Assembly: GCA_964017235.1 (NCBI GenBank)
Contig: OZ024934.1
Coordinates: 78,582,706-78,646,705, forward strand
DNA: 64,000 bases
Reading direction: 5' to 3'
From: Sabellastarte sp. h YS-2021
Taxonomy: Eukaryota; Annelida; Polychaeta; Sabellida; Sabellidae
In this document: positions 11,119 to 53,717 of the stretch, one piece after another
How positions within the stretch are numbered: the stretch's first letter is position 1
Layout: every line of letters starts with the position of its first letter
Translations under genes and position numbers: made by a program
The notes under the pieces: generated by a model
What the model was told of the DNA's origin: nothing
What the model saw: only the letters and a program-made list of their open reading frames with translations
Databases searched by the model: none

Positions 11119-11700
11119 TTGTATCCCCGGACGAAAGTCGGGGATACTTAGGATTCAGTACGGTCACATTGCCGCCGCCGCAGAGATTTCCTTTTGGACC
11201 CGATAACTTAAAAAATATTTTAGTTAGCACTTTCAAATTTGGTATGTGGGTATATATGTGACCTTGTACGGACCCATCACGGAGACGCCGAAAATTTAAC
11301 AGCTATTTTATTTTCGTTTCTGATCGTCACTATACACATATATTTCATATATTATTGATGGTTATCTGTCTTTTTACTGATATTATTTCATAAAGTTGTT
11401 GCTGGGAGTTTATCTATGTTGATTTACAATAATATTTCCTTGTATTGATATTTGCGGGTATTATCGCCCACTACCGGGAATTATCGTTCTACATCCAAGT
11501 TCTGTCACATTGTGTTTCTACTTTCCTTTCACAACAAATTACTTACACAACACCATACTCCAGAATTTCCATCTATTTTAGGTCCCAATAAGGCTTTCCT
11601 ATGTTTTTCAGGCCCCTCTAAGGTTTTTATTTTTTATTTTCTTTGCAGTGGCTCCAGTGGGGTAGTTAGGGTGCCTGTGAAACGCCCACAGGATGAAGAT
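11119..11700 (+). mobile_element. Hairpin-headed Helitron-like element, head copy a
   Basis: It begins TTGTATCCCC after an A. The hairpin arms are GTATCCCCG (11121-11129) and CGGGGATAC (11139-11147). A GGATTC spacer, a GCCGCCGCCGC run (11171-11181) and AGAGATTTC follow, the same order as heads at 16410 and 51655. The 3' terminus is not identified; the end coordinate is only a guess before the LINE. No protein is encoded. Confidence 0.55.
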
Positions 11701-11818
11701 TGACTTGAGTGTAAATTACTGAACCGACTGTAAAGCTTAGTGGACACTAGCTATAAGGTCATTTTTATTTTAGACTCCCCACAGTCCTTTTGTGTGTTAA
11801 GGCTCGGGAGTATGAAAA

Positions 11819-13264
11819 ATGTACCTTGTATGCTGTCTGGTATTCATCAGTCTTTTCCTCATCAGTATGTCCGACCATAAAGTACAGGTCAAGGGTTGTT
11901 TTGTGGGCTCCGTACTACCTCGATCTTTCAGACTGGCTAGTTCTGTTACAAATGCAAGATGCTTTCCCTCATCAGTGAAATCACGATCCCTCTGTGTTCT
12001 CTTGCTTTTATGTGGGGATATATCCCTAAATCCTGGACCTATTGTGATGGGGGTTGCTAACTGTCGGTCTGTAAGAAACAAGGCTCCAATGATTTCTGAC
12101 GTTGTGTTCAATCACTCACTGGACATATTATCACTGGTCGAAACTCATATTCGCCCGACTGATACCGATTGGCTGCTTCAATCCATCACACCACCATCTT
12201 ATAAATTGTGTCAAAGACCTCGTGCACATGGCTCGGGTGGAGGAGTTGGCTTTCTCATAAATAGCAGCCTGTCTCATAGAATTGTGGATCATCCCACTTT
12301 CACCTACTTTGAATGTCTGGTAGTCAGTATTGGATCGAATGCTCATTCTACACTGGTTGCTTGTGTTTATCGTTCTCCAGGTTCATGTTCCAATCCTTTT
12401 TATGATGAGTTTTACAGGTTGGTTGAGTTCCTCTCATCTATGAATTCCTCCTTCATCATTTGTGGCGACTTTAATGTTCATATTGACACAACATCAAGAG
12501 ATAGTGTTAATTTCCTTAATACTCTTGACTCCTGCAATATTACTCAACATGTTCACTCTGCTACCCATCTTCATGGCCATACCCTAGATCTCATCCTTAC
12601 TTCTGATAGTTCTCTGGTTTCAAATGTGGTTGTCAGTGACTACATCTCCAACCATGCAATGATCAAATGTCAAGTTGAAACTCCAACAACTGCTAAATCA
12701 CAAGCTAACAGAGTGACTTACAGGAGATATCATAAAATAAACATGGACACTCTACGTAATGACTTGAGCAATTGCTCCTTTGTTGCTTGTCCGGGTGACA
12801 CTGCGAAAAAATTGTATGATCAATACACTAATGATCTTTCCAACCTTCTGGACAAACATGCTCCAGAGGTTACTCGCTGTCTTGCCAAGGAGCCAGCAAA
12901 GTGGATATCAGATACCTACAAAAATGCCAAATCTATTCGACGACAGTTTGAACGCATCTGGCGTAAAAAGAAAACTCCTCTTAACCGTGCAAAGCTGCGC
13001 AAACAAATTGCCAGGTGTAATTCACTTGCCAATAAAGACAAAGCCACATATTACAGAGCTTTTGTTAATGAAAACGGTGATGACCCTAAAAAACTATGGC
13101 AAGTTCTGCGTTCTGCCTTGCACCGTATCCTTGACAAGGTTCTTCCATCAAATAGTTCACAAAAAAATTGGCTGAACAGTTTGCCGCTTTTTTCACCAAT
13201 AAGATTGCTAAAATCCGAGAGTCTTTTTCCAGTTTTTCATCTTTTTCCTTGCCATCTCCAGTGA
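11819..13264 (+). pseudogene. LINE ORF2 5' part: apurinic endonuclease domain
   Basis: This 481-codon frame holds the endonuclease half of an L2/CR1-like retrotransposon polyprotein. LLLCGDISLNPGP precedes the domain. Endonuclease motifs follow in order: NCRSVRNKA (about residue 80), DILSLVETHI, VACVYRSPG, FIICGDFNVH and SNHAMIKC. The endonuclease nicks target DNA to prime reverse transcription. Past residue 330 comes the linker (AKWISDTYKNAKSIRRQF, YYRAFVNENGDDPKKLWQ). The frame is lost at a run of seven A residues (13161-13167); one more A would join it to the RT frame beginning LAEQFAAFF. All visible catalytic residues are present. The C-terminal 35 residues after the shift are spurious. 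The start codon is uncertain. Confidence 0.9.
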
Positions 13265-15835: not shown

Positions 15836-16409
15836 TTGTTTGTTTGTTTGTGAACAAGATAACTCAAAAACTGACAGATGGATTTTGATAAAATTTTCAG
15901 GATATGTCCAAAATGGTAAAAGGAAGATATGATTAAATTTTGGGAGTGATCCGGATCACTGTCTGGATATTCTGGATCCATGAAATTTTATTTTTAAAGA
16001 CAGATAACTCAAAAACTTATGGGTGCATTTTGATGAAATTTTCAGGAAATGTCCTTAATGGGACGAGGAACAAGTGATTACATTTTGGGAGTGATCTGGA
16101 TCACTGTCTGGATCATATTTGTGTACAACATAGCTCAAAAACTTATGGATGGATTTTGATGAAATTTTCAGGATATGTCTGAAAAGGTAAAAGGATGAAA
16201 TGGTTGAATTTTGGAAGTGATCCGGATCACTATATGGATCTTCTGGATCCATGAAATGTAATTTTTAAAGACAGATACCTCAAAAAGTTATGGATGGATT
16301 GTGATGACATTTTCAGCAAATGACCTAAATGGTACAAGGAACAAGTGATTACATTTTTGGAGTGATCTGGATCACTGTCTGGATCATCTGGATCCAGGCT
16401 GCAACATAA
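15836..16409 (+). repeat. Dimeric ~280-bp GGATCC-rich repeat, segment 1
   Basis: Half-units of about 140 bp alternate: one begins GATCCATGAAATGTAATTTT and the other GATCCAGGCTGC. Each contains a core ATAACTCAAAAACTTATGG, then GATTTTGATGAAATTTTCAG, then GTGATCTGGATCACT. The segment is interrupted after GCAACATAA (16409) by the element at 16410-19684. The sequence resumes at 19685 without loss. Confidence 0.88.
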
Positions 16410-16487
16410 TTGTATCCCCGACGCGAAACGGGGATACTATGGATTCATCGTCGTCGTCCGCGCCCTCGTCCGCGTCCGCAGAGATTT

Positions 16488-16795
16488 CTTGTTAGCGACC
16501 TACAGTCCACATTTCTTTCCGCATTTCTTTCATATTTGGCCGGTGGCTTGATATGGTAGAGGACTCGCCACCCTATCTTTTTGGTAGGCTTTATGTCTAA
16601 ATTAGGCCTGTGGTAGACAAAAATGTCTAAAATGTGGAATATTGCTTGTTAGCGACCTACAGTCCACATTTCTTTCCAGATTTCTTTCATATTTGGCAGG
16701 TGGCTTGGTATGCTAGAGGACTCGCCACCCTATCTTTTTGGTAGGCTTTATGTCTAAATTAGGCCTCTGGTAGACAAAAATGTCTAAAATGCATT
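16488..16795 (+). repeat. Two 157-bp tandem units
   Basis: CTTGTTAGCGACCTACAGTC occurs at 16488 and 16645. The two units differ at only a few positions. They lie directly after the GC-rich head of element b. Confidence 0.85.
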
Positions 16796-16796
16796 A

Positions 16797-17930
16797 AAAT
16801 TCATGAAATCATGCACTAAATCACTTGTAACTTGAAAAGTGTTGCATTTAGAGCATTTTGTTAAACTATGTTATTCAGATACTTTTTTCATAGCTACAAC
16901 ATGGTGAGTAACTTGGGTGTCTGTCTCAATAGCTAAGTGAGTAATAGCTACTTTTGGGCTTTTCAGTAACTTCCATCGTGAGTAAAATCACTTGTAACTT
17001 GAAAACTATTGCATTTAGAGTATTTTGTTTCAATATGTTATTCAGCTATTTTTGGGTCAGCTATAACATAGTAAAATTTCAGACCTGTAGCTCATGGCAT
17101 AGCTGAGTAATAGCTACTTTTAGGTTATCACTGTTGAGTAAATTGCTTATAACTTCAAAAGTATTACATTTAGAGTATTTTGTTTCAATATGTTATTCAC
17201 CTATTTCGGAGTCAGCTATAACATAGTGAAGTTCCAGACCTGTGGCTCATTGCATAGCTGAGTAATAGCTACTTTGAAGTTCACACTGTTGAGTAAATCA
17301 GTTGTAATTGGAAAACTATTGCATTTACAGAAATTTGTGTAAATATGTTATTCAGCTACTTTTGGGTCAGCTATAACATAGTGAAATTATAGACCTGTAG
17401 CTCATGGCACAACTGAGCAATAGCTATTTTCAGGTACTGACTGTTGAGTAAATGACTTGTAACTTGAAAAATATTGCATTTGGAGTATTTTGTTAAAATA
17501 TGTTGTTCACCTACTTTTGGGTCAGCTATAACGTCGTGAAATTACAGACTTATAGCTCATGGCATAGCTGAGCAATAGCTATTTTCAGGTTCTCACTATT
17601 GAGTAAATCAGTTGTAACTTGAAAACTATTGCATTTACAGTATTTTGCTTAAATATGTTGTTCACCTAATTTTGGGTCAGCTATAACATAGAAAAAATTC
17701 AGACATGTAGCTCATTGCATAGCTGAGTAATAACTACTTTGAGGTTATCACTGTTGAGTAAATAAGTTATAATGTGAAAACTATTACATTTACAGTATTT
17801 TGTTTAAATATGTTATTCATATAATTTTTGGTCAGCTATAACAGAGTGAAATTGCAGACCTCTATGTCATGGCATAGCTTACCAATATCTACTTTCAGGT
17901 TCTCACTGTTGAGTAAATCATTGTATCCAC
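16797..17930 (+). repeat. 155-bp tandem array, copy 1 (~7 units)
   Basis: Units carry TAACTTGAAAACTATTGC, GTCAGCTATAACATAG and GCATAGCTGAGTAATAGCTA. They are moderately diverged from each other. The array ends GTTGAGTAAATCA, directly abutting an internal TTGTATCC head at 17931. The same array type with the same end occurs at 32008-34378. Confidence 0.85.
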
Positions 17931-18095
17931 TGGATAGCCGCAGTGTGTAGAGAGATTTCAACATTTACCTCTCTAACGAAAAAAATATTATAGCTAGCCT
18001 TCTCAAGTTTGCAAGGTATATTAGAGGGTGCACCACAGTATTCTATTGGTAGGCTTTATGTCTAAATTAGGCCTGTGGCTAAATTACTTGCCTAC
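17931..18095 (+). mobile_element. Internal head remnant inside element b
   Basis: It starts TTGTATCCACTGGATAGC, then GCAGTGTGTAGAGAGATTTC and TATTATAGCTAGCCTTCTCA. This matches the head of the element at 51655 with the right hairpin arm and GCC-repeat deleted. It marks where a second element's 5' end became internal. Confidence 0.7.
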
Positions 18096-19362
18096 TAAAA
18101 ATGAGTAATTCTGCATTTTCTCTAAAAGTATTGCAGATAGCAAATTTTTCTTAAATAACTCATTCACCTACTTTTGGGAGAGCTTTTACATGCTGAAGTT
18201 CCAGACCTGTAGGTAATTACTCACCTACTCAAAATGAGTAAATGCGAATTATCTCTAAAAGTATTGCAGATAGCCAATTTTTCTCAAATAACTCATTCAC
18301 CTACTTTTGGGAGAGCTTTCACTTGGTGAAGTTTCAGACCCATAGGTAATTACTCACCTACTGAAAATGAGTAAATGCAAATTATCTCTAAAAGTATTCC
18401 AGATAGCCAATTTTTGTCAAATAACTCCTTCACCTACTTTTGGGAGACCTTTCACTTGGTGAAGTTTCAGACCTGTAGCTAATTATTCACCTACTCAAAA
18501 TGAGTAAATGCTAATTATTTCTAAAAGTATTGCAGATATCCAATTTTTATCAAATAACTCATTCATCTACTTTTGGGAGAACTTTCACATGGTGAAGTTT
18601 CAGACCCATAGCTAATTATTCACCTACTCAAAATGAGTAAATGCAAATTATCTCTAAAAGTATTCCAGATAGCCAATTTTTGTCAAATAACTCCTTCACC
18701 TACTCTGTGGAGACCTTTCACTTGGTGAAGTTTCAGACCTGTAGCTAATTATTCACCTACTCAAAATGAGTAAATGCGAATTATCTCTAAAAGTATTGCA
18801 GATAGCCAATTTTTCTCAAATAACTCATTCACCTACTTTTGGGAGAGCTTTCACTTGGTGAAGTTTCAGACCCGTAGGTAATTACTCACCTACTAAAAAT
18901 GAGTAAATGCAAATTATCTCTAAAAGTATTCCAGATAGCCAATTTTTGTCAAATAACTCCTTCACCTACTTTTGGGAGACCTTTCACTTGGTGAAGTTTC
19001 AGACCTGTAGCTAATTATTCGCCTACTCAAAATGAGTAAATACTAATTATCTCTAAAAGTATTGCAGATATCCAATTTTTATCAAATAACTCATTCATCT
19101 ACTTTTGGGACAGCTTTCACATGGTGAAGTTCCAGACCCGTAGGTAATTACTCACCTACTGAAAATGAGTAAATTCGAATTATCTCTAAAAGTATTGTAG
19201 GTAGCCAATTTTTCTCAAATAACTCATTCGCCTACTTTTGAGAGAGCTTTCACTTGGTGAAGTTTCAGACCCGTAGCTAATTATTCACCTACTCAAAATG
19301 AATAAATGCGAATTATCTCGAGAAGTATTGCAGATAGCCAGTATTTCTCAAATAACTCATTA
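18096..19362 (+). repeat. 133-bp tandem array, copy 1 (~9.5 units)
   Basis: TGAGTAAATG recurs at 18501, 18634, 18767 and 18900 (133-bp spacing). The unit contains TTATCTCTAAAAGTATTGC and CACCTACTTTTGGGAGAGC. It is a diverged relative of the 155-bp unit: both share TTCACCTACTTTTGGG and GTGAAGTTTCAGACC-like blocks. The array degenerates at 19362. Confidence 0.88.
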
Positions 19363-19653
19363 ATATAAAAACAACTTATAGGAAGTCATGGGCTGCAAAT
19401 CTTTTCATGTGGTCAGATTTGACCTTGGGCCCCTCCTGCTTATTATTGGTCCTAGAGGTTTGCAATGTGAAAACGACTTATAGGAAATCATGGGCTGCGA
19501 ATCTTTTGATCAGGTCAGACTTCACCTTGGGCCCCTGCTACAGGGTCAAATAAGGGTAACCAAACTTAAAAGTGCTTTCAGCTTGCTTATTAACGAAAAA
19601 TGCTGTTTATCTTCTAAACTATGTTAGTTGGCCTTTGTCGGTGGATACATCCA
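19363..19653 (+). repeat. 147-bp type units and 3' end region of element b
   Basis: Two diverged units of the 147-bp family (ATTATTGGTCCTAGAGGTTT) are followed by a 100-bp unique tail leading to the terminal hairpin. The tail resembles 53650-53717 of the element at 51655. Confidence 0.7.
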
Positions 19654-19684
19654 GCATCTGGCCACAGATGCGTCCTTAGTCTAG

Positions 19685-20754
19685 TTTTAGGATGAATTTT
19701 GATGATATTTTTAGGATATATTACAAATGGTAAAAGGAAGAAGTGGTAAAAGGAAGAAATGGTTCAATTTTGCGAGTGATCTGGACCACTATCTGGATCT
19801 TCTGGATCCATGAAATATAATTTTTAAAGACAAATAGCTCAAAAAGTCATGGGTGGATTTTGATGAAATTTTCAGGAAATGTCCTAAATGGGACAAGGAA
19901 CAAGTGATTAGATTTTGGGAGTGATCTGGATCATCTGGATCCAGGCTCCCAGATGTGTTTGTGTACAAGATAAATCAAAAACTTATGGACGGATTTTGAT
20001 GAAATTTTCAGGATATGTCTGAAAAGGTAAAAGGATGAAATGATTGAATTTTGGAAGTGATCCGGATCACTATATGGATCTTCTGGATCCATGAAATGTA
20101 ATTTTTAAAGACAGATACCTCAAAAAGTTATGGATGGATCGTGATGACATTTTCAGCAAATGATCTAAATGGTGCGAGGAACAAGTGATTAGATTTTGGG
20201 AGTGATCTGGATCACTGTCTGGATCATCTGGATCCAGGCTGCCAGATGTGTTTGTGTACAATGTAGCTGAAAAACTTATGGACGGATTTTGATGAAATTT
20301 TCGGGATATGTCTGAAAAGGTAAAACAATGAAATGGCTGAATTTTGGAAGTGATCAGGATCACTATATGGATCTTCTGGATCCATGAAATGTAATTTTTA
20401 AAGACAGATACCTCAAAAAGTTATGGATGGATTGTGATGACATTTTCAACAAATGACCTAAATGGTACAAGGAACAAGTGATTACATTTTTTTGGAGTGA
20501 TCTGGATCATCTGGATCCAGGCTGCAACATAATTTTAGGATGAATTTTGATGATATTTTTAGGATATGTTAGAAATGGTAAAAGGAAGAAGTGGTAAAAG
20601 GAAGAAATGATTCAATTTTGCGAGTGATCTGGACCACTATCTGGATCTTCTGGATCCATGAAATATAATTTTAAAGACAAATAGCTCAAAAAGTCATGGG
20701 TGGATTTTTATGAAATTTTCAGGAAATGTCCTAAATGGGACAAGAAACAAGTAA
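19685..20754 (+). repeat. Dimeric ~280-bp GGATCC-rich repeat, segment 2
   Basis: It continues the array broken at 16409. GGATCCATGAAAT recurs at about 280-bp spacing (near 19807, 20088, 20379 and 20655). It contains the intact paralog GCAACATAATTTTAGGATG (20523-20541), which proves the clean insertion of element b. It is broken after CAAGTAA by element c. Confidence 0.88.
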
Positions 20755-20778
20755 TTAAGCGTCCCGCAAGGGACGCTT

Positions 20779-21179
20779 GTTTGTGTATGGGAGAGCTTCC
20801 GGCTCCGCCGGCTCCGCCGGCTCCTGCGGCTCCGCCGGCTCCGCCGGCTCCGCATTTTGTTTTCCTTATAACTCTGTAACCGTTAGGCGGATTCTTTTCA
20901 AATTTGGCAGGTTTAGGCAGTAGCCCTGGGGAATTTTTTTGAATATGCTGCAGTGACATTTCAACCAATCAGAGAGGTCACATGACCAAAAATGTCTTTT
21001 TTCGATGGGGAAGCTTGTCCGGATGATAACTTGAAAGGAATTTTATCAATTCACCTGAAACTTGGCAAATACATTCATTCTATTAAAATCTGGAAATCAT
21101 TAGATTTTGGCATTGATTGGTCAAGAAATGGCCGAGTAATTAATGATTAATTAATCATTACGAATTTTCCAAATAAGGA
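20779..21179 (+). other. Head region of element c
   Basis: After the terminal hairpin, a 9-bp GC-rich repeat is followed by about 320 bp of apparently single-copy AT-rich DNA. No gene is seen. Confidence 0.55.
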
Positions 21180-22287
21180 AAACACAAAAATGCTTATATC
21201 TCGAAAACCGTGCTAGATAGAGCGATTTCGACGAAATTTTTGACCCGCAGGGTATCTCTGCGGAGTAGTTTTCCCAATTTTCAAAAAATTTTTCTCTCGC
21301 CCAAAATGGCGGCCATTTTGAATTTTCGAAATTTTCGCAAAAATTGCAAAACACAAAAATGCTTATATCTCAAAAACTGTGCTAGATAGAGCAATTTCGA
21401 CAAAATTTTTGACCCGCAGGATATCTCTGCAGAGTACTTTTCCCAATTTTCAAAAAATTTGTCTCGCCAAAAATGGCGGCCATTTTGAATTTTCGAAATT
21501 TTCGCAAAAATTGCAAAACACAAAAATGGTTATATCTCAAAAACCGTGCTAGATAGAGCGATTTCGACGAAATTTTTGACCCTCAGGGTATCTCTGCAGA
21601 GTAGTTATCCCAATTTTGAAAAAATTTTTGTCTCGCCAAAAATGGCGGCCATTTTGAATTTTCGAATTTTTCGCAAAAATTGCAAAACATAAAAATGGTT
21701 ATATCTCGAAAACCCTGCTAGATAGAGCGATTTCGACGAAATTTTTGACCCACAGGGTATATCTGCAGAGTAGCCATGCCAATTTTCAAAAAAAATTTGT
21801 CTCGCCAAAAATGGCGGCCATTTTGAATTTTCGAATTTTTCGCAAAAATTGCAAAACATAAAAATGCTTATATCTCAAAAACCCTGCTAGATAGAGAGAT
21901 TTCGACGAAATTTTTGACCCGCAGGGTATCTCTGCAGAGTAGCCATGCCAATTTTCAAAAAAAAATTTCTCGCAAAAAATGGCGGCCATTTTGAATTTTC
22001 AAATTTTTCGCAAAATTGCAAAACACAAAAATGCTTATATCTCGAAAACCGTGCTAGATAGAGCGATTTCGACGAAATTTTTGACCCACAGGGTATCTCT
22101 GCAGAGTAGCCGTGCCAATTTTCAAAAAAATTTTGTCTTGCCAAAAATGGCGGCCATTTTGAATTTTCGAATTTTTGCGCAAAAATTGCAAAACACAAAA
22201 ATGCTTATATTTCCAAAACCGTGCTACATAGAGCGATTTCGACGAAATTTTTTATCTTCAGGGTATCTCTGCAGAGCAGCTATCCCA
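21180..22287 (+). repeat. 168-bp tandem array (~6.6 units)
   Basis: TTATATCTCGAAAACCGTGC recurs at about 168-bp spacing (21195, 21364, 21531 and on). Each unit holds GATTTCGACGAAATTTTTGA, CAGGGTATCTCTGCAGAG and AAAATGGCGGCCATTTTGAA. It is a subfamily of the 169-bp satellite of element d, with which it shares the GGCGGCCATTTT block. It joins the 133-bp array at 22287. Confidence 0.9.
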
Positions 22288-23289
22288 AAGAGCTTTCACT
22301 TGGTGAAGTTTCAGACCCATAGCTAATTACTCACCTACTCAAAATGAGTAAATGCGAATTATCTCTAAAAGCATTGCAGATAGCCAATTTTTCTCAAATA
22401 ACTCATTCACCTACTTTTGAGAGAGCTTTCACTTGGTGAAGTTTCAGACCCATAGCTAATTACTCACCTACTCAAAATGAGTAAATGCGAATTATCTCTA
22501 AAAGTATTGCAGATAGCCAATTTTTGTCAAATTAATCATTCACCTACTTTTGGGAGAGCTTTCACTTGGTGAAGTTTCAGACCCATAGCTAATTACTCAC
22601 CTACTCAAAATGAGTAAATGCGAATTATCTCTAAAAGTATTGCAGATAGCCAATTTTTCTCAAATAACTCATTCACCTACTTTTGGGAGAACTTTCACTC
22701 TGTGAAGTTTCAGACCCATAGCTAATTAGTCACCTACTCAAAATGAGTAAATGCGAATTATCTCTAAAAGTATTGCAGATAGCCAATTTTTCTCAAATAA
22801 CTCATTCACCTACTTTTGGGAGAGCTTTCACTCTGTGAAGTTTCAGACCCATAGCTAATTACTCACCTACTCAAAATGAGTAAATGCGAATTATCTCTAA
22901 AAGTATTGCAGATAGCCAATTTTTCTCAAATAACTCATTCACCTACTTTTGGGAGAGCTTTCACTTGGTGAAGTTTCAGACCCATAGCTAATTACTCACC
23001 TACTCAAAATGAGTAAATGCGAATTATCTCATAAAGTATTGCAGATAGCCAATTTTTGTCAAATTAATCATTCACCTACTTTTGGGAGAGCTTTCACTTG
23101 GTGAAGTTTCAGACCCATAGCTAATTACTCACCTACTCAAAATGAGTAAATGCGAATTATCTCTAAAAGTATTGCAGATAGCCAATTTTTCTCAAATAAC
23201 TCATTCACCTACTTTTGGGAGAGCTTTCACTCTGTGAAGTTTCAGACCCATAGCTAATTACTCACCTACTCAAAATGAGTAAATGCGAA
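22288..23289 (+). repeat. 133-bp tandem array, copy 2a (~7.5 units)
   Basis: The same unit as at 18096-19362, but more homogeneous. It is cut at GCGAA (23289) by element d and resumes at 29909. Without the insert the junction reads as a perfect unit. Confidence 0.9.
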
Positions 23290-23734
23290 TTATGTCCACC
23301 CCCCTGGGGGGTGGATATATTATTTTTGCTTTTTTCGCCGTCCGATGTCCGATGTCCGGCGTCCGGCGTCCGGCGTCCGATGTCCGGCGTCACGCATGGT
23401 TTCCGCTCATTTAAAGGAAAAGTATTAGAGCTATTGTCACCAAATTTGGTATGCAGGCTTATTGGGTCAGTAGCTTGCTTGGGATTGCTTTTGGCTGTTG
23501 TACCTCTTTTGCTTACTGAGTAATACTTAAGTACAGCTATTTTCAGTACCCATTGGTTTCCGTGCATTTAAGCCAAAATAATTAAAGATATTTTACTACA
23601 ATTTTGAATACAAGATTGTTATGTCCATAGCTCGCTTGGTATTGCATTTGGGACTGATAGCTTTGTCAGTACATGAGTAATAGCCATTTAGGTACTTCAT
23701 TGTGTATTTTCAGTACTACTTTTGAGTAATTTGC

Positions 23735-26700
23735 TAATATCTCAGAAACCGTGTGAGATAGAGCGATTTCGTCGAAATTTTCGACCCACAGGGTATTTAA
23801 GGAATGTAATATTTGCAATTTTCAAAAAATTTTCCCCTCCCCAAAAATGGCGGCCATTTTGAATTTTCGAATTTTTGCCAAAAATGGCAAAACACAAATT
23901 TGCTTCTATCTCCTTAACCGTGCGAGATAGAGCGATTTCGTCGAAATTTTCGACCCACAGGGTATCTAAGGAATGCAATCTTTGCAATTTTCAAAAAAAT
24001 TTTCCCCTCCCCAAAAATGGCGGCCATTTTGAATTTTCGAATTTTTGCCAAAAATGGCAAAACACCAATCTGCTTCTATCTCCTTAACCGTGCGAGATAG
24101 AGCGATTTCGTCAAAATTTTCGACCCACAGGGTATCTGAGCATTGTACTCTTGGTAATTTTAAAAAAATTTTCCCCTCCCCAAAAATGGCGGCCATTTTG
24201 AATTTTCGAATTTTTGCCAAAAATGGCAAAACACAAATTTGCTTCTATCTCCTTAACCGTGCCAGATAGAGCGATTTCGTCAAAATTTTCGACCCACAGG
24301 GTATCTGAGCATTGTGCTCTTGGTAATTTTTACAAAATTTTCCCCTCCCCAAAAATGGCGGCCATTTTGAATTTTCGAATTTTTGCCAAAAATGACAAAA
24401 CACTAATTTGCTTCTATCTCCTTAACCGTGCGAGATAGAGCGATTTCGTCGAAATTTTCGACCCACAGGGTATCTGAGCATTGTGCTCTTGGTAATTTTC
24501 CAAAAATTTTCCCCTCCCCAAAAATGGCGGCCATTTTGAATTTTCGAATTTTTGCCAAAAATGGCAAAACACTAATTTGCTTCTATCTCCTTAACCGTGC
24601 GAGATAGAGCGATTTCGTCGAAATTTTCGACCCACAGGGTATCTAAGGAATGCAATCTTTGCAATTTTCCAAAAATTTTCCCCTCCCCAAAAATGGCGGC
24701 CATTTTGAATTTTCGAATTTTTGCCAAAAATGGCAAAACACAAATTTCCTTCTATCTCCTTAACCGTGCCAGATAGAGCGATTTCGTCAAAATTTTCGAC
24801 CCACAGGGTATCTGAGCATTGTACTCTTGGTAATTTAAAAAAAATTTTCCCCACCCCAAAAATGGCGGCCATTTTGAATTTTTGAATTTTTGCCAAAAAT
24901 GGCAAAACACAAATTTGCTTCTATCTCCTTAACCGTGCCAGATAGAGCGATTTCGTCAAAATTTTCGACCCACAAGGTATCTAAGGAATGCAATCTTTGC
25001 AATTTTCCAAAAATTTTCCCCTCCCCAAAAATGGCGGCCATTTTGAATTTTCGAATTTTTGCCAAAAATGGCAAAACACAAATTTCCTCCTATCTCCTTA
25101 ACCGTGCCAGATAGAGCGATTTCGTCAAAATTTTCGACCCACAGGGTATCTGAGCATTGTACTCTTTGCAATTTTCCAAAAATTTTCCCCTCCCCAAAAA
25201 TGGCGGCCATTTTGAATTTTCGAATTTTTGCCAAAAATGGCAAAACACTAATTTGCTTCTATCTCCTTAACCGTGCGAGATAGAGCGATTTCGTCGAAAT
25301 TTTCGACCCACAGGGTAACTAAGGAATGCAATCTTTGCAATTTTCCAAAAATTTTCCCCTCCCCAAAAAATGGCGGCCATTTTGAATTTTCGAATTTTTG
25401 CCAAAAATGGCAAAACACAAATTTGCTTCTATCTCCTTAACCGTGCGAGATAGAGCGATTTCGTCGAAATTTTCGACCCACAGGGTATCTAAGGAATGCA
25501 ATCTTTGCAATTTTCAAAAAAATTTTCCCCTCCCCAAAAATGGCGGCCATTTTGAATTTTCGAATTTTTGCCAAAAATGGCAAAACACCAATCTGCTTCT
25601 ATCTCCTTAACCGTGCGAGATAGAGCGATTTCGTCAAAATTTTCGACCCACAGGGTATCTGAGCATTGTACTCTTGGTAATTTTAAAAAAATTTTCCCCT
25701 CCCCAAAAATGGCGGCCATTTTGAATTTTCGAATTTTTGCCAAAAATGGCAAAACACAAATTTGCTTCTATCTCCTTAACCGTGCCAGATAGAGCGATTT
25801 CGTCAAAATTTTCGACCCACAGGGTATCTGAGCATTGTGCTCTTGGTAATTTTTACAAAATTTTCCCCTCCCCAAAAATGGCGGCCATTTTGAATTTTCG
25901 AATTTTTGCCAAAAATGACAAAACACTAATTTGCTTCTATCTCCTTAACCGTGCGAGATAGAGCGATTTCGTCGAAATTTTCGACCCACAGGGTATCTGA
26001 GCATTGTGCTCTTGGTAATTTTCCAAAAATTTTCCCCTCCCCAAAAATGGCGGCCATTTTGAATTTTCGAATTTTTGCCAAAAATGGCAAAACACTAATT
26101 TGCTTCTATCTCCTTAACCGTGCGAGATAGAGCGATTTCGTCGAAATTTTCGACCCACAGGGTATCTAAGGAATGCAATCTTTGCAATTTTCCAAAAATT
26201 TTCCCCTCCCCAAAAATGGCGGCCATTTTGAATTTTCGAATTTTTGCCAAAAATGGCAAAACACAAATTTGCTTCTATCTCCTTAACCGTGCCAGATAGA
26301 GCGATTTCGTCAAAATTTTCGACCCACAGGGTATCTGAGCATTGTACTCTTGGTAATTTAAAAAAAATTTTCCCCACCCCAAAAATGGCGGCCATTTTGA
26401 ATTTTTGAATTTTTGCCAAAAATGGCAAAACACAAATTTGCTTCTATCTCCTTAACCGTGCCAGATAGAGCGATTTCGTCAAAATTTTCGACCCACAGGG
26501 TATCTAAGGAATGCAATCTTTGCAATTTTCCAAAAATTTTCCCCTCCCCAAAAATGGCGGCCATTTTGAATTTTCGAATTTTTGCCAAAAATGGCAAAAC
26601 ACAAATTTCCTCCTATCTCCTTAACCGTGCCAGATAGAGCGATTTCGTCAAAATTTTCGACCCACAGGGTATCTGAGCATTGTACTCTTTGCAATTTTCC

Positions 26701-29690
26701 AAAAATTTTCCCCTCCCCAAAAATGGCGGCCATTTTGAATTTTCGAATTTTTGCCAAAAATGGCAAAACACTAATTTGCTTCTATCTCCTTAACCGTGCG
26801 AGATAGAGCGATTTCGTCGAAATTTTCGACCCACAGGGTAACTAAGGAATGCAATCTTTGCAATTTTCCAAAAATTTTCCCCTCCCCAAAAATGGCGGCC
26901 ATTTTGAATTTTCAAATTTTTGCCAAAAATGGCAAAACACAAATTTCCTTCTATCTCCTTAACCGTGCGAGATAGAGCGATTTCGTCAAAATTTTCGACC
27001 CACAGGGTATCTGAGCATTGTACTCTTGGCAATTTTTAAAAAAATTTCCCCTCCCCAAATATGGCGGCCATTTTGAATTTTCGAATTTTTGCCAAAAATG
27101 GCAAAACACTAATTTGCTTCTATCTCCTTAACCGTGCGAGATAGAGTGATTTCGTCGAAATTTTCGACCCACAGGGTATCTAAGGAATGCAATCTTTGCA
27201 ATTTTCCAAAAATTTTCCCCTCCCCAAAAATGGCGGCTATTTTGAATTTTCGAATTTTTGCCAAAAATGGCAAAACACAAATTTCCTTCTATCTCCTTAA
27301 CCGTGCGAGATAGAGCGATTTCGTCGAAATTTTCGACCCACAGGGTATCTAAGGAATGCAATCTTTGCAATTTTCAAAAAATTTTCCCCTCCCCAAAAAT
27401 GGCGGCCATTTTGAATTTTCGAATTTTTGCCAAAAATGGCAAAACACCAATCTGCTTCTATCTCCTTAACCGTGCGAGATAGAGCGATTTCGTCAAAATT
27501 TTCGACCCACAGGGCATCTGAGCATTGTACTCTTGGTAATTTTTAAAAAATTTTCCCCTCCCCAAAAATGGCGGCCATTTTGAATTTTTGCCAAAAATGG
27601 CAAAACACAAATTTCCTCCTATCTCCTTAACCGTGCCAGATAGAGCGATTTCGTCAAAATTTTCGACCCACAGGGTATCTGAGCATTGTGCTCTTGGTAA
27701 TTTTTACAAAATTTTCCCCTCCCCAAAAATGGCGGCCATTTTGAATTTTCGAATTTTTGCCAAAAATGACAAAACACTAATTTGCTTCTATCTCCTTAAC
27801 CGTGCGAGATAGAGCGATTTCGTCGAAATTTTCGACCCACAGGGTATCTGAGCATTGTGCTCTTGGTAATTTTCCAAAAATTTTCCCCTCCCCAAAAATG
27901 GCGGCCATTTTGAATTTTCGAATTTTTGCCAAAAATGGCAAAACACTAATTTGCTTCTATCTCCTTAACCGTGCGAGATAGAGCGATTTCGTCGAAATTT
28001 TCGACCCACAGGGTATCTAAGGAATGCAATCTTTGCAATTTTCCAAAAATTTTCCCCTCCCCAAAAATGGCGGCCATTTTGAATTTTCGAATTTTTGCCA
28101 AAAATGGCAAAACACAAATTTGCTTCTATCTCCTTAACCGTGCCAGATAGAGCGATTTCGTCAAAATTTTCGACTCACAGGGTATCTGAGCATTGTACTC
28201 TTGGTAATTTAAAAAAAATTTTCCCCTCCCCAAAAATGGCGGCCATTTTGAATTTTCGAATTTTTGCCAAAAATGGCAAAACACAAATTTCCTCCTATCT
28301 CCTTAACCGTGCCAGATAGAGCGATTTCGTCAAAATTTTCGACCCACAGGGTATCTGAGCATTGTACTCTTGGTAATTTTTAAAAAATTTTCCCCTCCCC
28401 AAAAATGGCGGCCATTTGAATTTTCGAATTGTTGCCAAAAATGGCAAAACACTAATTTGCTTCTATCTCCTTAACCGTGCGAGATAGAGTGATTTCGTCG
28501 AAATTTTCGACCCACAGGGTATCTAAGGAATGCAATCTTTGCAATTTTCCAAAAATTTTCCCCTCCCCAAAAATGGCGGCCATTTTGAATTTTCGAATTT
28601 TTGCCAAAAATGGTAAAACACAAATTTGCTTCTATCTCCTTAACCGTGCGAGATAGAGCGATTTCGTCGAAATTTTCGACCCACAGGGTATCTAAGGAAT
28701 GCAATCTTTGCAATTTTCCAACAAATTTTCCCCTCCCCAAAAATGGCAGCCATTTTGAATTTTCGAATTTTTGCCAAAAATGGCAAAACACAAATTTGCT
28801 TCTATCTCCTTAACCGTGCGAGATAGAGCGATTTCGTCGAAATTTTCGACCCACAGGGTATTTAAGGAATGCAATCTTTGCAATTTTCCAAAAAATTTTC
28901 CCCTCCCCAAAAATGGCAGCCATTTTGAATTTTCGAATTTTTGCCAAAAATGGCAAAACACAAATTTGCTTCTATCTCCTTAACCGTGCGAGATAGAGCG
29001 ATTTCGTCGAAATTTTCGACCCACAGGGTATCGAAGAAATGCAATCTTTGCAATTTTCCGAAAAATTTTCCCCTCCCCAAAAATGGCGGCCATTTTGAAT
29101 TTTCGAATTTTTGCCAAAAATGGCAAAACACAAATTTGCTTCTATCTCCTTAACCGTGCGAGATAGATCGATTTCATCAAAATTTTCGACCCACAGGTAT
29201 TTCAGCATTGTATTCTTGGCAATTTAAAAAAAAATTTCCCGTCCCCTAAAATGGCGGCCATTTTGAATTTTCAAATTTTTGTCAAAAATGGCAAAACACA
29301 AATTTGCTTCTATCTCCTTAACCATGCGAGATAGAGCGATTTCGTCGAAATTTTCAACCCACAGGGTATCTAAGGAATGTAATCTTTGCAATTTTCAAAA
29401 AATTTTCCCCTCCCCAAAAATGGCAGCCATTTTGAATTTTCGAATTTTTGCCCAAAATGGAAAAACACAAACTGGCCTTAACCGTGCAAAATAGAGTTAT
29501 TTCGTTGAAATTTTCGACCCATAGGGTATCTAAAAAATGTACTCTTGGCAATTTTCAAAAAAATTTCCTTTTCCCAAAAATGGCGGCCATTTTGAATTTT
29601 CAAATTTTTGCCAAAAATAGAAAAACAGGAATTTGCTTCTATCTTCTTAACCGTGCCAGATAGAGTGATTTCGTCAAAATTTTCAACCCA
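23735..29690 (+). repeat. 169-bp satellite array (~35 units) with higher-order repeat
   Basis: The unit contains CTATCTCCTTAACCGTGCGA, GATAGAGCGATTTCGTC, CGACCCACAGGGTATCT, AAAATGGCGGCCATTTTGAA and TTGCCAAAAATGGCAA. Two variants alternate after GTATCT: AAGGAATGCAATCTTTGC and GAGCATTGTACTCTTGG. A block of nine units (1523 bp) is repeated almost exactly: 23875 onward equals 25398 onward, through about 26800. A further related block lies at 27600-28200. CpG dinucleotides are retained. The short open frames on both strands (70-106 codons) are by-products of the repeat and not genes. Confidence 0.93.
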
Positions 29691-29908
29691 ACCAATGCAA
29701 AAAGGCATGAAGCTGAAATAATTTACATCTACACTAACAAATATTTAAGCATCATTGATATATTTTACAAATGAAACAGGGTCTTGTAAGACTACTGTAC
29801 AATTTGGGCAAAAGGTTCATGGGTGGACATTACACATGATAATGTGTGTTCTTCTATGCTATCCTGTTTCTATTCGCATCTACTATCAACAGGGCGGCCA
29901 ATTTCTAG
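29691..29908 (+). repeat. Conserved 3' tail of element d
   Basis: Nearly the same 220 bp occurs at 38010-38236, starting at ACCAATGCAAAAAGGCATGA and ending TTTCTRG. It includes CACAT-GATA-ATGTG and the arms CCTGTT/AACAGG near the terminus. It marks the 3' end shared by elements d and f. Confidence 0.85.
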
Positions 29909-30912
29909 TTATCTCTAAAAGTATTGCAGATAGCCAATTTTTCTCAAATAACTCATTCACCTACTTTTGGGAGAGCTTTCACTTGGTGAAGTTTCAGACC
30001 CATAGCTAATTACTCACCTACTCAAAATGAGTAAATGCGAATTATCTCTAAAATTATTGCAGATAGCCAATTTTTCTCAAATTAATCATTCACCTACTTT
30101 TGGGAGAGCTTTCACTTGGTGAAGTTTCAGACCCATAGCTAATTATTCGTCTACTCAAAATGAGTAAATGCGAATTATCTCTAAAAGTATTGCAGATAGC
30201 CAATTTTTCTCAAATAACTCATTCACCTACTTTTGGGAGAGCTTTCACTTGGTGAAGTTTCAGACCCATAGCTAATTACTCACCTACTCAAAATGAGTAA
30301 ATGCGAATTATCTCTAAAAGTATTGCAGATAGCCAATTTTTCTCAAATAACTCATTCACCTACTTTTGGCAGAGCTTTCACTTGGTGAAGTTTCAGACCC
30401 ATAGCTAATTATTCACCTACTCAAAGTGAGTAAATGTGAATTATCTCTAAAAGTATTGCAGATAGCCAATTTTTCTCAAATAACTCATTCACCTACTTTT
30501 GGGAGAGCTTTCACTTGGTGAAGTTTCAGACCCATAGCTATTTATTCACCTACTCAAAATGAGTAAATGCTAATTATCTGTAAAAGTATTGCGGATACCC
30601 AATTTTTATCAAATACTCATTCATCTACTTGTGGGAGAGCTTTCACATGGTGAAGTTTCAGACCCATAGCTAATTACTCACCTACTCAAAATGAGTAAAT
30701 GCGAATTATCTCTAAAAGTATTGCAGATAGCCACTTTTTCTCAAATAACTCATTCACCTACTTTTGGGAGAGCTTTCACTTGGTGAAGTTTCAGACCCAT
30801 AGATAATTATTCACCTACTCAAAATGAGTAAATGTGAATTATCTCTTAATAGTATTGCAGATAGCCAATTTTTCTCAAATAACTCATTCACCTACTTTTG
30901 GAAGACCTTTCA
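29909..30912 (+). repeat. 133-bp tandem array, copy 2b (~7.5 units)
   Basis: Continuation of the array broken at 23289. Later units are more diverged than the first ones. It ends at GGAAGACCTTTCACACACG. Confidence 0.88.
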
Positions 30913-31260: not shown

Positions 31261-31418
31261 TAGAGCAGACTGCGCTGACTTTGGTTGCCACAACAGTATA
31301 AGGCTAGAAACGAAGCATTTTCTTAATACTTTAGCACTCACCTTTATATCCTTTTCGGGACACTTTGTTTTTGCTATGCAAAAACATTATCTTTTTTTTT
31401 TTGCGAGCGATCCTCTAG

Positions 31419-34378: not shown

Positions 34379-35205
34379 TTGTATCCAACCTGTAGGAAAT
34401 CATGGGCTGGGAATCTATTAATATGGTCCGATTTGACCTTGGAACCCTCCTTCAAGGTCAAATGAGGATAGCCAAACATAAAAGTGCTTATAACTCGCTT
34501 ATTATTGGTCCTAGAGGTTGGAATGAAAACCAACCTATAGAAAATCATGAGCTGGGAATTTTTTGGTGTGGTCGGATTTCGCCTTGGACCCCTCCTTCAA
34601 GGTCAAATGAGGATAGCCAAACTTAAAAGTGCTTATAACTCACTTATTATTGGTCCTAGAGGTTTCGAATGGAAAACCAACCTATAGAAAATCATGGGCT
34701 GGGAATCTTTTGGTGTGGTCGGATTTGACCTTAGACCCCTCCTTCCAGGTCAAACGAAGATAGCCAAACTTAAAGTGCTTATAACTCGCATATTATTGGT
34801 CTTGGAGGTTTGGGATGGTAAACCAACATATAGGAAATCATGGGCTGGGATTCTTTTGGTGTGGTCAGATTTGACCTGGGACCCCTCCTTCAAGGTCAAT
34901 TGAGGATAGCCAAACTTACAATTGCTTAGAACTCGCTTATTATTGGTCCTACAAGTTTGGGATGGTAAACAAGCTACAGGAAATCATGGGCTGGGAATTT
35001 TTTTGTGTGGTCGGATTTGACCTTGGACCCCCTCCTTCAAGGTCAAACAAGGATAGCCAAACTTAAAAAGTGCCTATGACTCACTTATTATTGGTCCGAG
35101 AGGTTTGGGATGGTAAACCATCCTAAATTCTTTGGCTGGGAATCTTTTGGTATGGTCAGATTTGACCTTTGGACCCCTTCTTCATGGTCGAACGAGGATA
35201 TTGCA
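34379..35205 (+). repeat. Internal TTGTATCC head fused to a 147-bp array (~5.5 units)
   Basis: TTGTATCCAACCTGTAGG passes straight into 147-bp units (TTATAACTCGCTTATTATTG, GGTCCTAGAGGTTTGG, AAATCATGGGCTGGGAATC, GACCCCTCCTTCAAGGTCAA). Units are more diverged than in the array at 52040. Confidence 0.8.
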
Positions 35206-35481
35206 TTTATAGTATTTCTTTAAATATTTTTAACCTACTTTTTACACTTAAACAATTACCTTGTTACTTTATTTCATAATACCATTTGCAGGGCACAACT
35301 TTTTTGTCCTTTTCTTCTGTCAGCTTCGGAATATCTTTCGAACATGCTGTTCAGTTACCATTTACTGTATTTCTGTACAGCCCTTTCCCTGATAATTATG
35401 CTTTCCTCTCATTATCACCATCACAAATCAAAAACATTCAGTCAGCTGACACAGTGCCCGTTCACGGGCACTCTCCTCTTG

Positions 35482-36043
35482 TTAAAGACACATACCGCAA
35501 AAAGGTATGGATGGATTGTTTCAGCAAATGGCCTAAATGGTACAAGGAACAAGTGATTAAATTTTTGGAGTGATCTGGATCACTGTCTGGATTATCTGGA
35601 TCCAGGCTGCCACATAATCTTGGGATGGACTTTGATATTTTTAGGATATGTTACAAATGGTAAAAGGAAGAAGTGGTAAAATTCAGAAATGATTGAATTT
35701 TGCGAGTGATCTGGACCACTATCTGGATCTTCTGGATCCAAGAAATGTAATTTTTAAAGACAAATAGCTCAAAAAGTCATGGATGGATTTTTATGAAATT
35801 TTCAGGAAATGTCTTAAATGGGACAAAGATCAAGTGATTAGTTTTTGGGAGTAATCTGGATCACTGTCTGGATCATGTGGATCCAGGCTGCCAGATGTGT
35901 TTGTGTACAAGATAACTAAAAAACTTATGGACGGATTTTGACGAAATTTTTAGAATATGTCTGAAAAGGTAAAAGGATGAAATGATTGAATTTTGGAAGT
36001 GATCCGGATCACTATATGGATCTTCTGGATCCATGAAATGTCA
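35482..36043 (+). repeat. Dimeric ~280-bp GGATCC-rich repeat, segment 4
   Basis: Last part of the array interrupted by elements b, c and e. It ends with GGATCCATGAAATGTC near 36043. Together the four segments make up about 2.4 kb of what was once one continuous array. Confidence 0.85.
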
Positions 36044-36656: not shown

Positions 36657-38236
36657 TTATGTCCACCCACTTGGGGGTGGACATATTATTTTTGCTTTTT
36701 CCGCCGTCCGGCGTCCCACTTGGTTTCCAGACATTTTAGGCAACAGTTCTTATCCTATCTTTACCAAATTTGGCATGCAGGTTTATTGGGTTAATAGCTT
36801 GTATGGGATTGCTTTTGGTGGTGATAGCTCTATAGCTAGAGTGAGTAATAGCTACTTTGCTACTTTTGAGTATCTCTTTGGTTTCCAGACATTTTAAGGA
36901 ATGCTATTAAGCCTAGCTTTCTGAAATTTGGTATGGAGGTTCATTGGGTTAATAGCTTGTATGGGATTGCTTTTGGGGGTAATTGCGTCGAAAATTTCGA
37001 TCCACAGGGTATCTAAGGAATGTAATCTTTGCAATTTTCAAAAAAATTTCCCCTCCCCAAAAATGGCGGCCATTTTGAATTTTCGAATTTTTGCCAAAAA
37101 TGGCAAAACACAAATTTGCTTCTATCTCCTTAATCGTGTGAGATAGAGCGATTTCGTCGAAATTTTCGATCCACAGGGTATCTAAGGAATGTAATCTTTG
37201 CAATTTTCAAAAAAATTTCCCCTCCCCAAAAATGGTGGCCATTTTGAATTTTCGAATTTTTGCCAAAAATGGCAAAACACAAATTTGCTTCTATCTCCTT
37301 AACCGTGCGAGATAGAGCGATTTCGTCGAAATTTTCGACCCACAGGTTATCTCAGAAATGTACTCTCAGCAATTTTCCAAAAAATTTCCCCTCCCCAAAA
37401 ATGGCGACCATTTTGAATTTTCGAATTTTTTGCCAAAAATGGCAATACACGAATTTGCTTCTATCTCCTTAACCGTGCGAGATAGAGCAATTTCGTCGAA
37501 ATTATCAAGCAACAGGGTATCTGAGCAATGTACTGTTGGTAATTTTCAAAAAATTTTCCCCTCCCCAAAAATGGCGGTCTTCTTGAATTTTCTAATTTTT
37601 CCCAAAAATGGCAAAATACAAAATTGCTTCTATCTCCTTAACCGTGTGAGATAGAGGGATTTCGTCAAAATTTTCGACCCACAGGGTATCTGAGCAATGT
37701 ACTCTTGGCAATTTTCAATAAATTTTCCCCTCCCCACATATGGTGGCCATTTTGAATTTTCGAATTTTTGCCCAAAATGGAAAAACACAAATTTGCCTTA
37801 ACCGTGCAAAATAGAGTTATTTCGGTGAAATTTTTGACCCATAGGGTATCTAAGAAATGTACTCTTGGCAATTTTCAAAAAATTTTCCTCTTCCCAAAAA
37901 TGGCGGCCATTTTGAATTTTCAAATTTTTGCCAAAAATAGAAAAACAGAAATTTGCTTCTATCTTCTTAACCGTGCAAGATAGAGTGATTTCGTCAAAAT
38001 TTTCGACCCAACCAATGCAAAAAGGCATGAAGCTGAAATAATTTACATGTACACTAATAAATATTTAACCATCGTTGATATATTTCACAAATGAAACAGC
38101 GTCTTGTAAGACTACTGTACAATTTTGGCAAAAGGTTCATGGGGCGGACATTACACATGATAATGTGTGTTCTTCTATGCTATCCTCTTTCTATTCCTAT
38201 GTCGCAGCTACTACCAACAGGATGTCCTATTTCTGG
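36657..38236 (+). mobile_element. Hairpin-headed Helitron-like element f, short relative of d
   Basis: It starts TTATGTCCACC with arms 36660-36668 and 36675-36683, then ATATTATTTTTGCTTTTT and GCCGTCCGGCGTCC. A single-copy part similar to 23430-23520 of element d follows (CCAAATTTGG, GGGATTGCTTTTGG). Then come about six 169-bp units (36985-38008) and the 220-bp tail, ending CTGG (38233-38236). The flanks are A at the left and T at the right, as in the other elements. It gives a second, independent view of the same element with a much smaller array. Confidence 0.85.
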
Positions 38237-46817: not shown

Positions 46818-46819
46818 CC

Positions 46820-51421: not shown

Positions 51422-51523
51422 TTTTATAATTTAAGAGAAGGAATTCAGTATCCCTTAATATACATTGTACGCTTTTATAATTTAAGAGAAGGACTTCAGT
51501 ATCCCTTAATATACATTATACTC
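51422..51523. repeat. Two 51-bp tandem copies
   Basis: TTTTATAATTTAAGAGAAGG starts at 51422 and 51473; the copies differ at two positions. Confidence 0.8.
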
Positions 51524-51654
51524 TGTATAACTAGAACCTCCAATATGCATTAACTCCCACCAGTGACTGAAGGCCTTGGTCGTGAGATTATAAAACATCT
51601 TCCGTGCGTCCGTCCGTTTGCCACGTTTTTTCATAAACCTAAATATCTCATTCA

Positions 51655-53717
51655 TTGTATCCACCGGATAGCATCCGGTGGATACTATGGATTTGACTTC
51701 GTTATGCCTACGCCGCCGCCGCCGCAGTGTGTAGAGAGATTTCACCGTTACCGCTCTAACTAAAAAAATATTATAGCTAGCCTTCTCAAATTTGCAGGAT
51801 ATATTCATAACCATAATATCTTGTCTGGGAATATTTTTGCCCTCATTTTGAAAAACAAGATGGCTGCCACGGCCGTTTTTCGACTTTAAATAAGGACTTT
51901 TGGTGGCCCTCTAGAGCAAAGGGTATTATAGGTAGAGATCTCAAATTCGCAGGATATGTTCCTCATAATAAAATCTTGACTGGGAATATTTTTGGCCTCA
52001 TTTTGAAATACAAGATGGCCGCCACAGGCGTTTCTTTGAAGTCATGAAAAGTGCTTATATCTCCCTTATTATTGGTCCTAGAGGTTTGGGATGGTAAACC
52101 AACCTATAGGAAATCAGGGCCTGGGAATCTTTTGGTGTGGTCAGATTTGACCTTGGACCCCACCGTCAAGGTCAAACAAGCATAGCCAAACTTAAAAGTG
52201 CTTATAACTCGCTTATTATTGGTCCTAGAGGTTTGGTATGGTAAACCAACATATAGGAAATCATGTGCTGGGAATCTTTTGGTGTGGTCGGATTTGACCT
52301 TGGACCCCTCCTTCAAGGTCAAACGAGGATAGCCAAACTTAAAAGCGCTTATAACTCGCTTATTATTGGTCCTAGAGGTTTGGGATGGTAAACCAACATA
52401 CAGGAAATCATGTGCTGGGAATCTTTTGGTGTGGTGGGATTTGACCTTGGACCCCTCCTTCAAGGTCAAACGAGCATAGCCAAACTTAAAAGTGCTTATA
52501 ACTCGCTTATTATTGGTCCTAGAGGTTTGGGATGGTAAACCAACCTATAGGAAATCATGGGCTGGGAATCTTTTGGTGTGATCGGATTTGACCTTGGACC
52601 CCTCCTTCAAGGTCAAACGAGGATAGCCAAACTTAAAAGTGCTTATAGCTCGCTTATTATTGGTCCTAGAGGTTTGGAATGGTAAACCAACCTATAGGAA
52701 ATCATTGGCTGGGAATCTTTTGGTGTGGTGGGATTTGACCTTGGCCCCCTTCTTCAAGGTCAAACGAGGATAGCCAAACTTAAAAGTGCTTATAACTCGC
52801 TTATTATTGGTCCTAGAGGTTTGGGATGGTAAACCAACCTATAGGAAATCATGGGCTGGGAATCTTTTGGTGTGGTCGGATTTGATCTTGGACCCCTCCT
52901 TCAAGGTCAAACGAGGATAGCCAAACTTAAAAGTGCTCATAACTCGCTTATTATTGGTCCTAGAGGTTTGGGATGGTAAACCAACCTATAGGAAATCATC
53001 AGCTGGGAATCTTTTGGTGTGGTCGGATTTGACTTTGGACCCCTCCTTCAAGGTCAAACGAGGATAGCCAAACTTAAAAGCGCTTATAACTCACTTATTA
53101 TTGGTCCTAGAGGTTTGGGATGGTAAACCAACATATAGGAAATCATGTGCTGGGATTCTTTTGGTGTGGTTGGATATGACCTTGGACCCCTCCTTCAAGG
53201 TCAAACGAGGATAATCAAACTTAAAAGTGCTTATAACTCGCTCATTATTGATCCTAAAGGTTTGGGATGGTAAAACAAACCTACACAAAACATGGACAAG
53301 GAATCTATTGCTGTGGTCGGATTAGACCTTGGAACCTCCATCGAGGTCAAACGAGGATTGCCAAACTTAAAAGTGCTTATAACTCGCTTATTATTGGCCC
53401 TAAAGGTTTGGTATGGTAAACCAACATATAGGAAATCATGTGCTGGGAATCTTTTGGTGTGGTTGGATTTGACCTTTGGCCCCTCTTTCAAGGTCAAATG
53501 AGGATTGCCAAAATTAACAGTGTTTGTATCTTGCTTATTCATATTCCTAGAGGTTTGCAGTGTCACACTAACCTATAGGAAATCATGGAAATCTTTTGAT
53601 ATGGTCAGATTTCACCTTGGGCTTCTCCTTCAAGGTGAAGCGATATCAGAATGGCTTTGGTGAGTTTTCTTTGTGGTGGATGCAATTTGCATCGGTTCTC
53701 CGATGCGCTAGGTCTAG
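51655..53717 (+). mobile_element. Hairpin-headed Helitron-like element g, 2.1 kb
   Basis: The 5' end TTGTATCCACC has perfect 13-bp hairpin arms (51657-51669 and 51673-51685, loop AGC). ACTATGGATTT, a GCCGCCGCCGCCGC run (51713-51726) and AGAGAGATTTC follow. About eleven 147-bp units occupy most of the interior. The 3' end has hairpin GCATCGG/CCGATGC (53689-53695 and 53700-53706, loop TTCT) and stops at CTAG (53714-53717). The flanks are A and T. The flanking DNA resembles an old repeat seen again at 55805-55910. It lies in intron 1 of the receptor gene. No protein is encoded. Confidence 0.85.
52040..53640 (+). repeat. 147-bp tandem array (~11 units)
   Basis: GGTCCTAGAGGTTTGG recurs at 52074, 52221, 52368 and 52515 (147-bp spacing). 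Most units differ at few positions, so homogenisation or expansion is recent. The last two units are more diverged. Confidence 0.93.

Follow-up and report, generated by a model that had tools for sequence, protein, structure and literature searches.

Helitron2 elements are defined by a hairpin at the 5' end, and compensatory changes have been reported in that hairpin (Bao and Jurka 2013, PMC3627910). In non-autonomous Helentrons (HINEs), subterminal repeats that are palindromic lie 2-4 nt inside the 5' end (Thomas et al. 2014, PMC4067079). The HINEs of an oyster have the same layout, with central repeats that resemble satellites and with a microsatellite (Vojvoda Zeljko et al. 2020, PMC7492417). 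Here we describe a stretch of 64,000 nt from Sabellastarte sp. h YS-2021 (assembly GCA_964017235.1, contig OZ024934.1, positions 78,582,706-78,646,705, forward strand; called the window) with seven 5' element ends, or heads, named by their first position (11119, 16410, 20755, 23290, 31616, 36657, and 51655), and six complete elements. The elements are almost certainly HINEs, of the Helitron2 group of rolling-circle transposons. This assignment is based on their ends, on empty sites, on a repeat shared by head and tail in five of the six, and on a coding relative with ends of the same kind.

As in Helitron2 (PMC3627910), the repeat at the 5' end (5' asymmetrical terminal inverted repeat, ATIR) forms a hairpin with the bases downstream of it, in most elements the 3'-ATIR lies just before a 3' hairpin or hairpin candidate, and compensatory stem changes are found between related elements; a point of difference from Helitron2 is the weak endonuclease match at the C-terminus of the coding copy, a feature of Helentrons. 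HINE-Mo and Helentrons (PMC4067079) share with our elements the palindromic 5' subterminal inverted repeats (subTIRs) and the TT target and, less firmly, the 3' palindrome and a partner with Rep, helicase and endonuclease. Most elements of the window are dominated by central satellites, however, and the 3' palindrome is weak in two of six. Cg_HINE of Crassostrea gigas (PMC7492417) likewise has a 5' subTIR with a complementary inverted repeat 1-12 bp away, a microsatellite (GTCC-like in several cases), one or two satellite-like arrays, a 3' subTIR with a palindrome, a T-rich insertion site without duplication, and related flanks around divergent arrays. Several of the window elements are nested, however, and one is double-headed, and the likeness described here is one of layout. 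The CTAG-end Helitron-like elements of C. gigas (PMC7992393) resemble those of the window in the CTAG, in the A before the target T and, in part, in subterminal repeats, but their 5' end is TC and all but one lack a microsatellite.

A preliminary description of the window had listed seven heads that start with TT and carry a perfect stem of 9-13 bp, and all seven were confirmed. A head hairpin was defined as TT followed, after at most 6 bases, by a perfect stem of at least 9 bp with a GC content of at least 40% and a loop of at most 10. The window has 21 TT positions with such a hairpin, many more than its 20 dinucleotide shuffles, which have 0-4 (mean 1.5). Twelve of the 21 positions belong to the seven heads (several to one hairpin), seven to a palindromic tract and two are isolated (15073 and 46927). 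The tract, at 56099-57969, is a dense run of palindromes on ACCATGGT/AACCATGGTT that is unrelated to the heads.

All seven heads have a subterminal repeat near the 5' end that forms the hairpin with the bases downstream of it. The standard pairs across the heads number 9/9, 9/9, 13/13, 12/13, 10/10, 13/13, and 9/9; the 12/13 is that of head 23290, where the perfect stem starts at 23295 and the outer arm contains one G-T mismatch. The seven heads have six different stems, to which the coding copy elsewhere in the genome adds a seventh. Heads 11119 and 16410 have the same stem, which differs from that of 51655 at two of nine shared positions (C-G/A-T and G-C/C-G) with both pairs kept. The subfamilies 23290 and 36657, though related, differ in stem, and one of them carries the mismatch. 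A GC-rich short repeat after each of the seven heads was confirmed by eye. The tandem array said to follow the heads is present behind six of the seven, but head 11119 is followed by a retrotransposon instead. This is a non-long-terminal-repeat (non-LTR) retrotransposon at 11816-14913, whose frames encode an endonuclease and a reverse transcriptase and which is followed by a TTGGAA repeat.

The six complete elements all consist of TT and a hairpin, a GC-rich short repeat, satellite-like arrays, and CTAG, CTGG or CTTG before a TT. Their tails were located by inverted copies of the head arms and by reading the ends of the arrays. No tail of head 11119 was recognised in the window by searches for inverted arm copies, and this head, for which no 3' end with at most one mismatch was found, was excluded from the tail count. 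The 3' end is CTAG in four of six elements, CTGG in 36657 and CTTG in 31616, so that the CTRR end of the preliminary description stands for five of the six but not for 31616. An A precedes the element in five of six cases, and 31616 was inserted after T.

Base-exact empty sites, all of the form N^TT, were obtained for four of the six elements from neighbouring satellite monomers. The array of AGTGATCC hosts elements 16410, 20755 and 31616, resumes behind each of them and is the source of their empty sites; element 23290 sits in a 133-bp monomer of the array inside element 20755. With the flanks joined and compared with an undisturbed monomer, 16410 gave ACATAA^TTTTAGG (80/82 identical, TT shared at the junction), 20755 gave AGTGA^TTAGATT (94/100, TTA), 23290 gave GCGAA^TTATCTC (100/100, TTAT) and 31616 gave GTAATTT^TTAAAGAC (85/88, TTA). 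Only TT is thus common to the four sites. The four elements entered N^TT without any duplication beyond bases shared with TT by chance. TT stands on both sides of all six elements, where a 2-bp duplication of TT is indistinguishable from insertion at TT. For 36657 and 51655, no match to an empty site was found within the window.

The relation between head and tail was assessed with the 12 bases after the TT, which were reverse-complemented and compared with the final 120 bases of the element they came from. Among 4947 random 12-mers of the window, 6.3% reached at least 9 matches, 0.8% at least 10, and none at least 11. An inverted copy of the head arm is present in the tail of five of six elements, with 9, 9, 10, 10, and 11 matches. 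The 3' hairpins were compared with 200 mononucleotide shuffles per element, and the 9-bp stems of 20755 and 31616 were reached by none of the 200.

The genome (1.786 Gb, 647 contigs) was searched for the head families, and in each search 40 of the 641 (11119), 1364 (31616), 449 (23290) and 2387 (51655) first-look candidates were scored. Judged by these sequence matches, all four heads are members of large genomic families. In the 11119 search, 11 of the 40 scored rows match only a second repeat behind the head. For the 51655 family, the best 20 of the 39 other listed places were fetched (L069-L088). The 5' end is exactly the same in all 20, and the DNA upstream of it is unrelated. All 20 also have T-N-A before the TT, and T at -3 is kept in the ten whose middle base is a different one; the query itself held TCA, which biases this count in part. 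T-N-A^TT is close to the TNAT preference described for Helitron2-like elements of Fusarium. The contexts GAA (23290 family) and TTT (31616 family) before the TT were left unused because the query contained those bases and the rows had been chosen by their score against it. Seven exact 3'-end motifs in fetched loci are all followed by TT, and four of the seven are one duplicated locus.

Among the best-scoring copies of a family the stem hardly varies: 17 of 20 in the 51655 family, 29 of 30 in the 31616 family and all 30 in the 23290 family have an identical stem (window copy included in the last two). Where high-scoring copies depart from the stem, as in three of the 51655 family, the change is confined to one arm. 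The copies compared were picked by score, which favours stems like that of the query, and a looser sample could contain more variants. The stem that varies freely, as proposed in the preliminary description, does not agree with these counts.

The same searches gave two side observations. Four heads of the 31616 family (L013-L016, G000:C4 ~102463369-102475847) lie 3.7-4.5 kb apart with the same flanks and a 31616 tail before each, and this is a tandem or duplicated locus. In the 23290 family, 37 of the 40 listed matches are on the + strand, an excess that is probably an artefact of candidate ranking and not biology.

The same genome contains 24 matches to PF14214 (Helitron_like_N). One coding copy (L092) has an open frame of 2245 codons with Helitron_like_N and a PIF1 helicase match; its C-terminal endonuclease match is weak (21.4 bits, E 0.00023, below the curated cut-off of Pfam). 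Its 5' side has a T run, an 11-bp perfect hairpin and a GTCC-type microsatellite. Its 3' repeat agrees with the head arm at every one of 12 positions and starts 36 nt before the end CTTG^TT, as in 31616. A Rep/helicase-encoding copy with the same ends had been called for, and the ends of this one are of the same kind but its stem is none of those of the window. The coding copy supports the class, and the exact partner of the window families is not thereby identified. A broken copy (L093) has separate Rep and helicase-endonuclease frames and a head that resembles the 20755 head; compared with the latter, one pair is changed from G-C to A-T and another from T-A to T-G. This copy was left out of the count of complete elements.

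Several observations weigh against the assignment to HINEs. The 9/12 repeats of 36657 and 51655 are weak when taken singly, and head 16410 matches its own tail at 7/12, a common chance value, in a unit that contains a second head. The 3' hairpin claimed for most elements holds with 9 bp in two of six and 7 bp in two of six, but the 6-bp stems of the other two are at shuffle level: those of 23290 and 36657 were reached by 36/200 and 25/200 shuffles, and even the 7-bp stems of 16410 and 51655 are modest (6/200 and 7/200). Behind the 3' repeat of the coding copy, no perfect stem is longer than 3 bp. In the parts read of five PF14214 loci, no coding copy with both ends together with a stem of the window was found. 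The broken copy L093 has ATG instead of TT before the stem, and no 3' repeat was found in it; in the parts read of L090, L094 and L095, stretches that may miss the ends, no hairpin was accompanied by a 3' repeat of more than 8/11.

Canonical Helitrons (Helitron1) whose 5' ends are unusual would insert at A^T, end in CTRR and carry a hairpin some 11 nt before the 3' end. The CTAG or CTGG ends and the preceding A in five of six elements agree with this, as does a 3' hairpin 9-13 nt before the element end in three of six, and the CTAG-end elements of C. gigas with subterminal repeats have been considered possible intermediates between Helitrons and Helentrons (PMC7992393). Nevertheless, the 5' end is the wrong one, with TT and a hairpin in place of TC without a hairpin, the 5' repeat recurs at the 3' end in five of six, and 31616 was inserted after T and ends in CTTG. 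We rejected this explanation as very unlikely. Cut-and-paste transposons of the MITE-like (miniature inverted-repeat transposable elements) or foldback sort, bounded by inverted repeats and duplicating a short target of TT or TTA, could account for the TT flanks of all six elements and for the TT, TTA, TTAT and TTA shared at the four junctions. TT alone is common to all sites, however, the 3' repeat is subterminal and the 5' repeat is part of a hairpin, and ends of this kind also occur on a Rep-helicase copy; elements with duplications were thus rejected, and we consider them extremely improbable.

The preliminary description proposed a new rolling-circle class with freely varying stems, whose enzyme would recognise the hairpin by its shape alone. 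Six stems among seven heads and a seventh in the coding copy, nearly all of them fully paired, speak in its favour. The near-constancy of the stem among high-scoring family copies, with exceptions in one arm only, does not, and a freely varying stem was rejected for the copies compared. In addition, five of six elements have a second copy of the arm at their 3' end, and therefore the stem sequence is constrained too. The evidence supports a rolling-circle class distinct from canonical Helitrons, as had been proposed, but does not support an unknown one; the structure has already been published as Helitron2 (PMC3627910). A class of this sort is highly doubtful.

For elements read as HINEs, the mechanism can be sketched from the literature on rolling-circle transposition and the role of the hairpin (PMC3627910, PMC4067079, PMC5148889, PMC7992393, and PMC7492417). 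A Rep-helicase-endonuclease from an autonomous Helentron elsewhere in the genome would nick the 5' end, peel off one strand and stop at the 3' end. In the proposal of Bao and Jurka (PMC3627910), pairing between the 5' and 3' repeats would open the 5' hairpin and so mark the end of replication. Such a role would keep both pairings while families drift to different stems.

Unit 16410-19684 carries two heads but a single tail, and the empty site found for it is clean and fits its outer boundaries. Its tail matches the inner head 17921 at 9 of 12 positions, and heads 51655 and 11119 at 10. The unit could have moved as a composite, by replication from the head of one family to the tail of another with the satellites swapped inside, but we regard this as unlikely. 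The tail may instead belong to the same kind as the outer head, because 11119, whose stem is the same as that of 16410, matches it at 10/12; recombination between similar tails may also have produced the unit. If the composite were real, one Rep-helicase-endonuclease would use differing heads, and hairpin shape with a compatible 3' repeat would suffice for mobilisation across families. The coding copy L092 is likewise double-headed, with heads at G000:C3:168666691 and 168667291, 600 bases apart.

The satellite arrays are cargo shared between families. A 155-bp repeat is common to 16410 and 31616, a 133-bp repeat to the 17921 part and 20755, a 146-bp repeat to the 17921 part, 31616 and 51655, and a 169-bp repeat to 20755, 23290 and 36657.

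Two other coding features lie in the window. At 565-4099, a frame of 875 codons with RVT_1 and RT_RNaseH (Pfam) is followed by a frame of 214 codons without a Pfam match; together they resemble a DIRS-type element. At 59173-61578 on the minus strand, an open frame of 801 codons combines a reverse transcriptase with a GIY-YIG domain, a pairing also present in Penelope-like elements. The coordinates of heads, tails and elements are given in Table 1.

Table 1. Positions of the elements, read with little doubt as HINEs, and of their parts (window coordinates, except for the coding copy).
Feature	Position	Strand
Element 11119, 5' head only; followed downstream by non-LTR retrotransposon (at about 11.8-15.0 kb of the window)		+
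HINE unit with two 5' heads (16410, 17921) and one tail; 155-bp, 133-bp, 146-bp arrays	16410..19684	+
Complete HINE, 169-bp and 133-bp arrays, interrupted by 23290-29908	20755..31418	+
Complete HINE, 35-copy 169-bp array	23290..29908	+
Complete HINE, 155-bp and 146-bp arrays	31616..35481	+
Complete HINE, 23290 type	36657..38236	+
Complete HINE, 147-bp array	51655..53717	+
5' hairpin of 11119, stem GTATCCCCG	11121..11147	+
5' hairpin of 16410	16412..16437	+
5' hairpin of 20755, AAGCGTCCC/GGGACGCTT	20757..20778	+
5' hairpin of 23290, TCCACCCCCC/GGGGGGTGGA	23295..23315	+
5' hairpin of 31616, 13-bp stem	31618..31647	+
5' hairpin of 36657, 11-bp stem	36658..36685	+
5' hairpin of 51655, 13-bp stem	51657..51685	+
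Inner decayed head, 51655 type, right hairpin arm deleted	17921..17938	+
3' subterminal repeat of 16410 unit	19637..19648	+
3' subterminal repeat of 20755, 10/12	31354..31365	+
3' subterminal repeat of 23290, 10/12	29819..29830	+
3' subterminal repeat of 31616, 11/12	35441..35452	+
3' subterminal repeat of 36657, 9/12	38140..38151	+
3' subterminal repeat of 51655, 9/12	53672..53683	+
3' hairpin of 16410 unit, GCATCTG/CAGATGC	19654..19671	+
3' hairpin of 20755, 9-bp stem	31366..31386	+
3' hairpin candidate of 23290, 6-bp stem, not above shuffles	29827..29845	+
3' hairpin of 31616, AGTGCCCGT/ACGGGCACT	35453..35472	+
3' hairpin candidate of 36657, 6-bp stem, not above shuffles	38148..38166	+
3' hairpin of 51655, GCATCGG/CCGATGC	53689..53706	+
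AGTGATCC satellite array, pieces 15847-16387, 19751-20757, 31419-31591, 35490-36022	15847..36022	+
Coding copy, 11,669 bases	G000:C3:168667289-168678957	

On present evidence, the heads do not mark an unknown transposon class. What remains useful is a clear case within 64 kb, where the empty sites of four nested HINEs can be placed to the base from satellite monomers. The genome, in which young HINE families occur alongside an open Rep-helicase frame with ends of the same kind, would be suited to testing the roles of the 5' hairpin and the 3' repeat.

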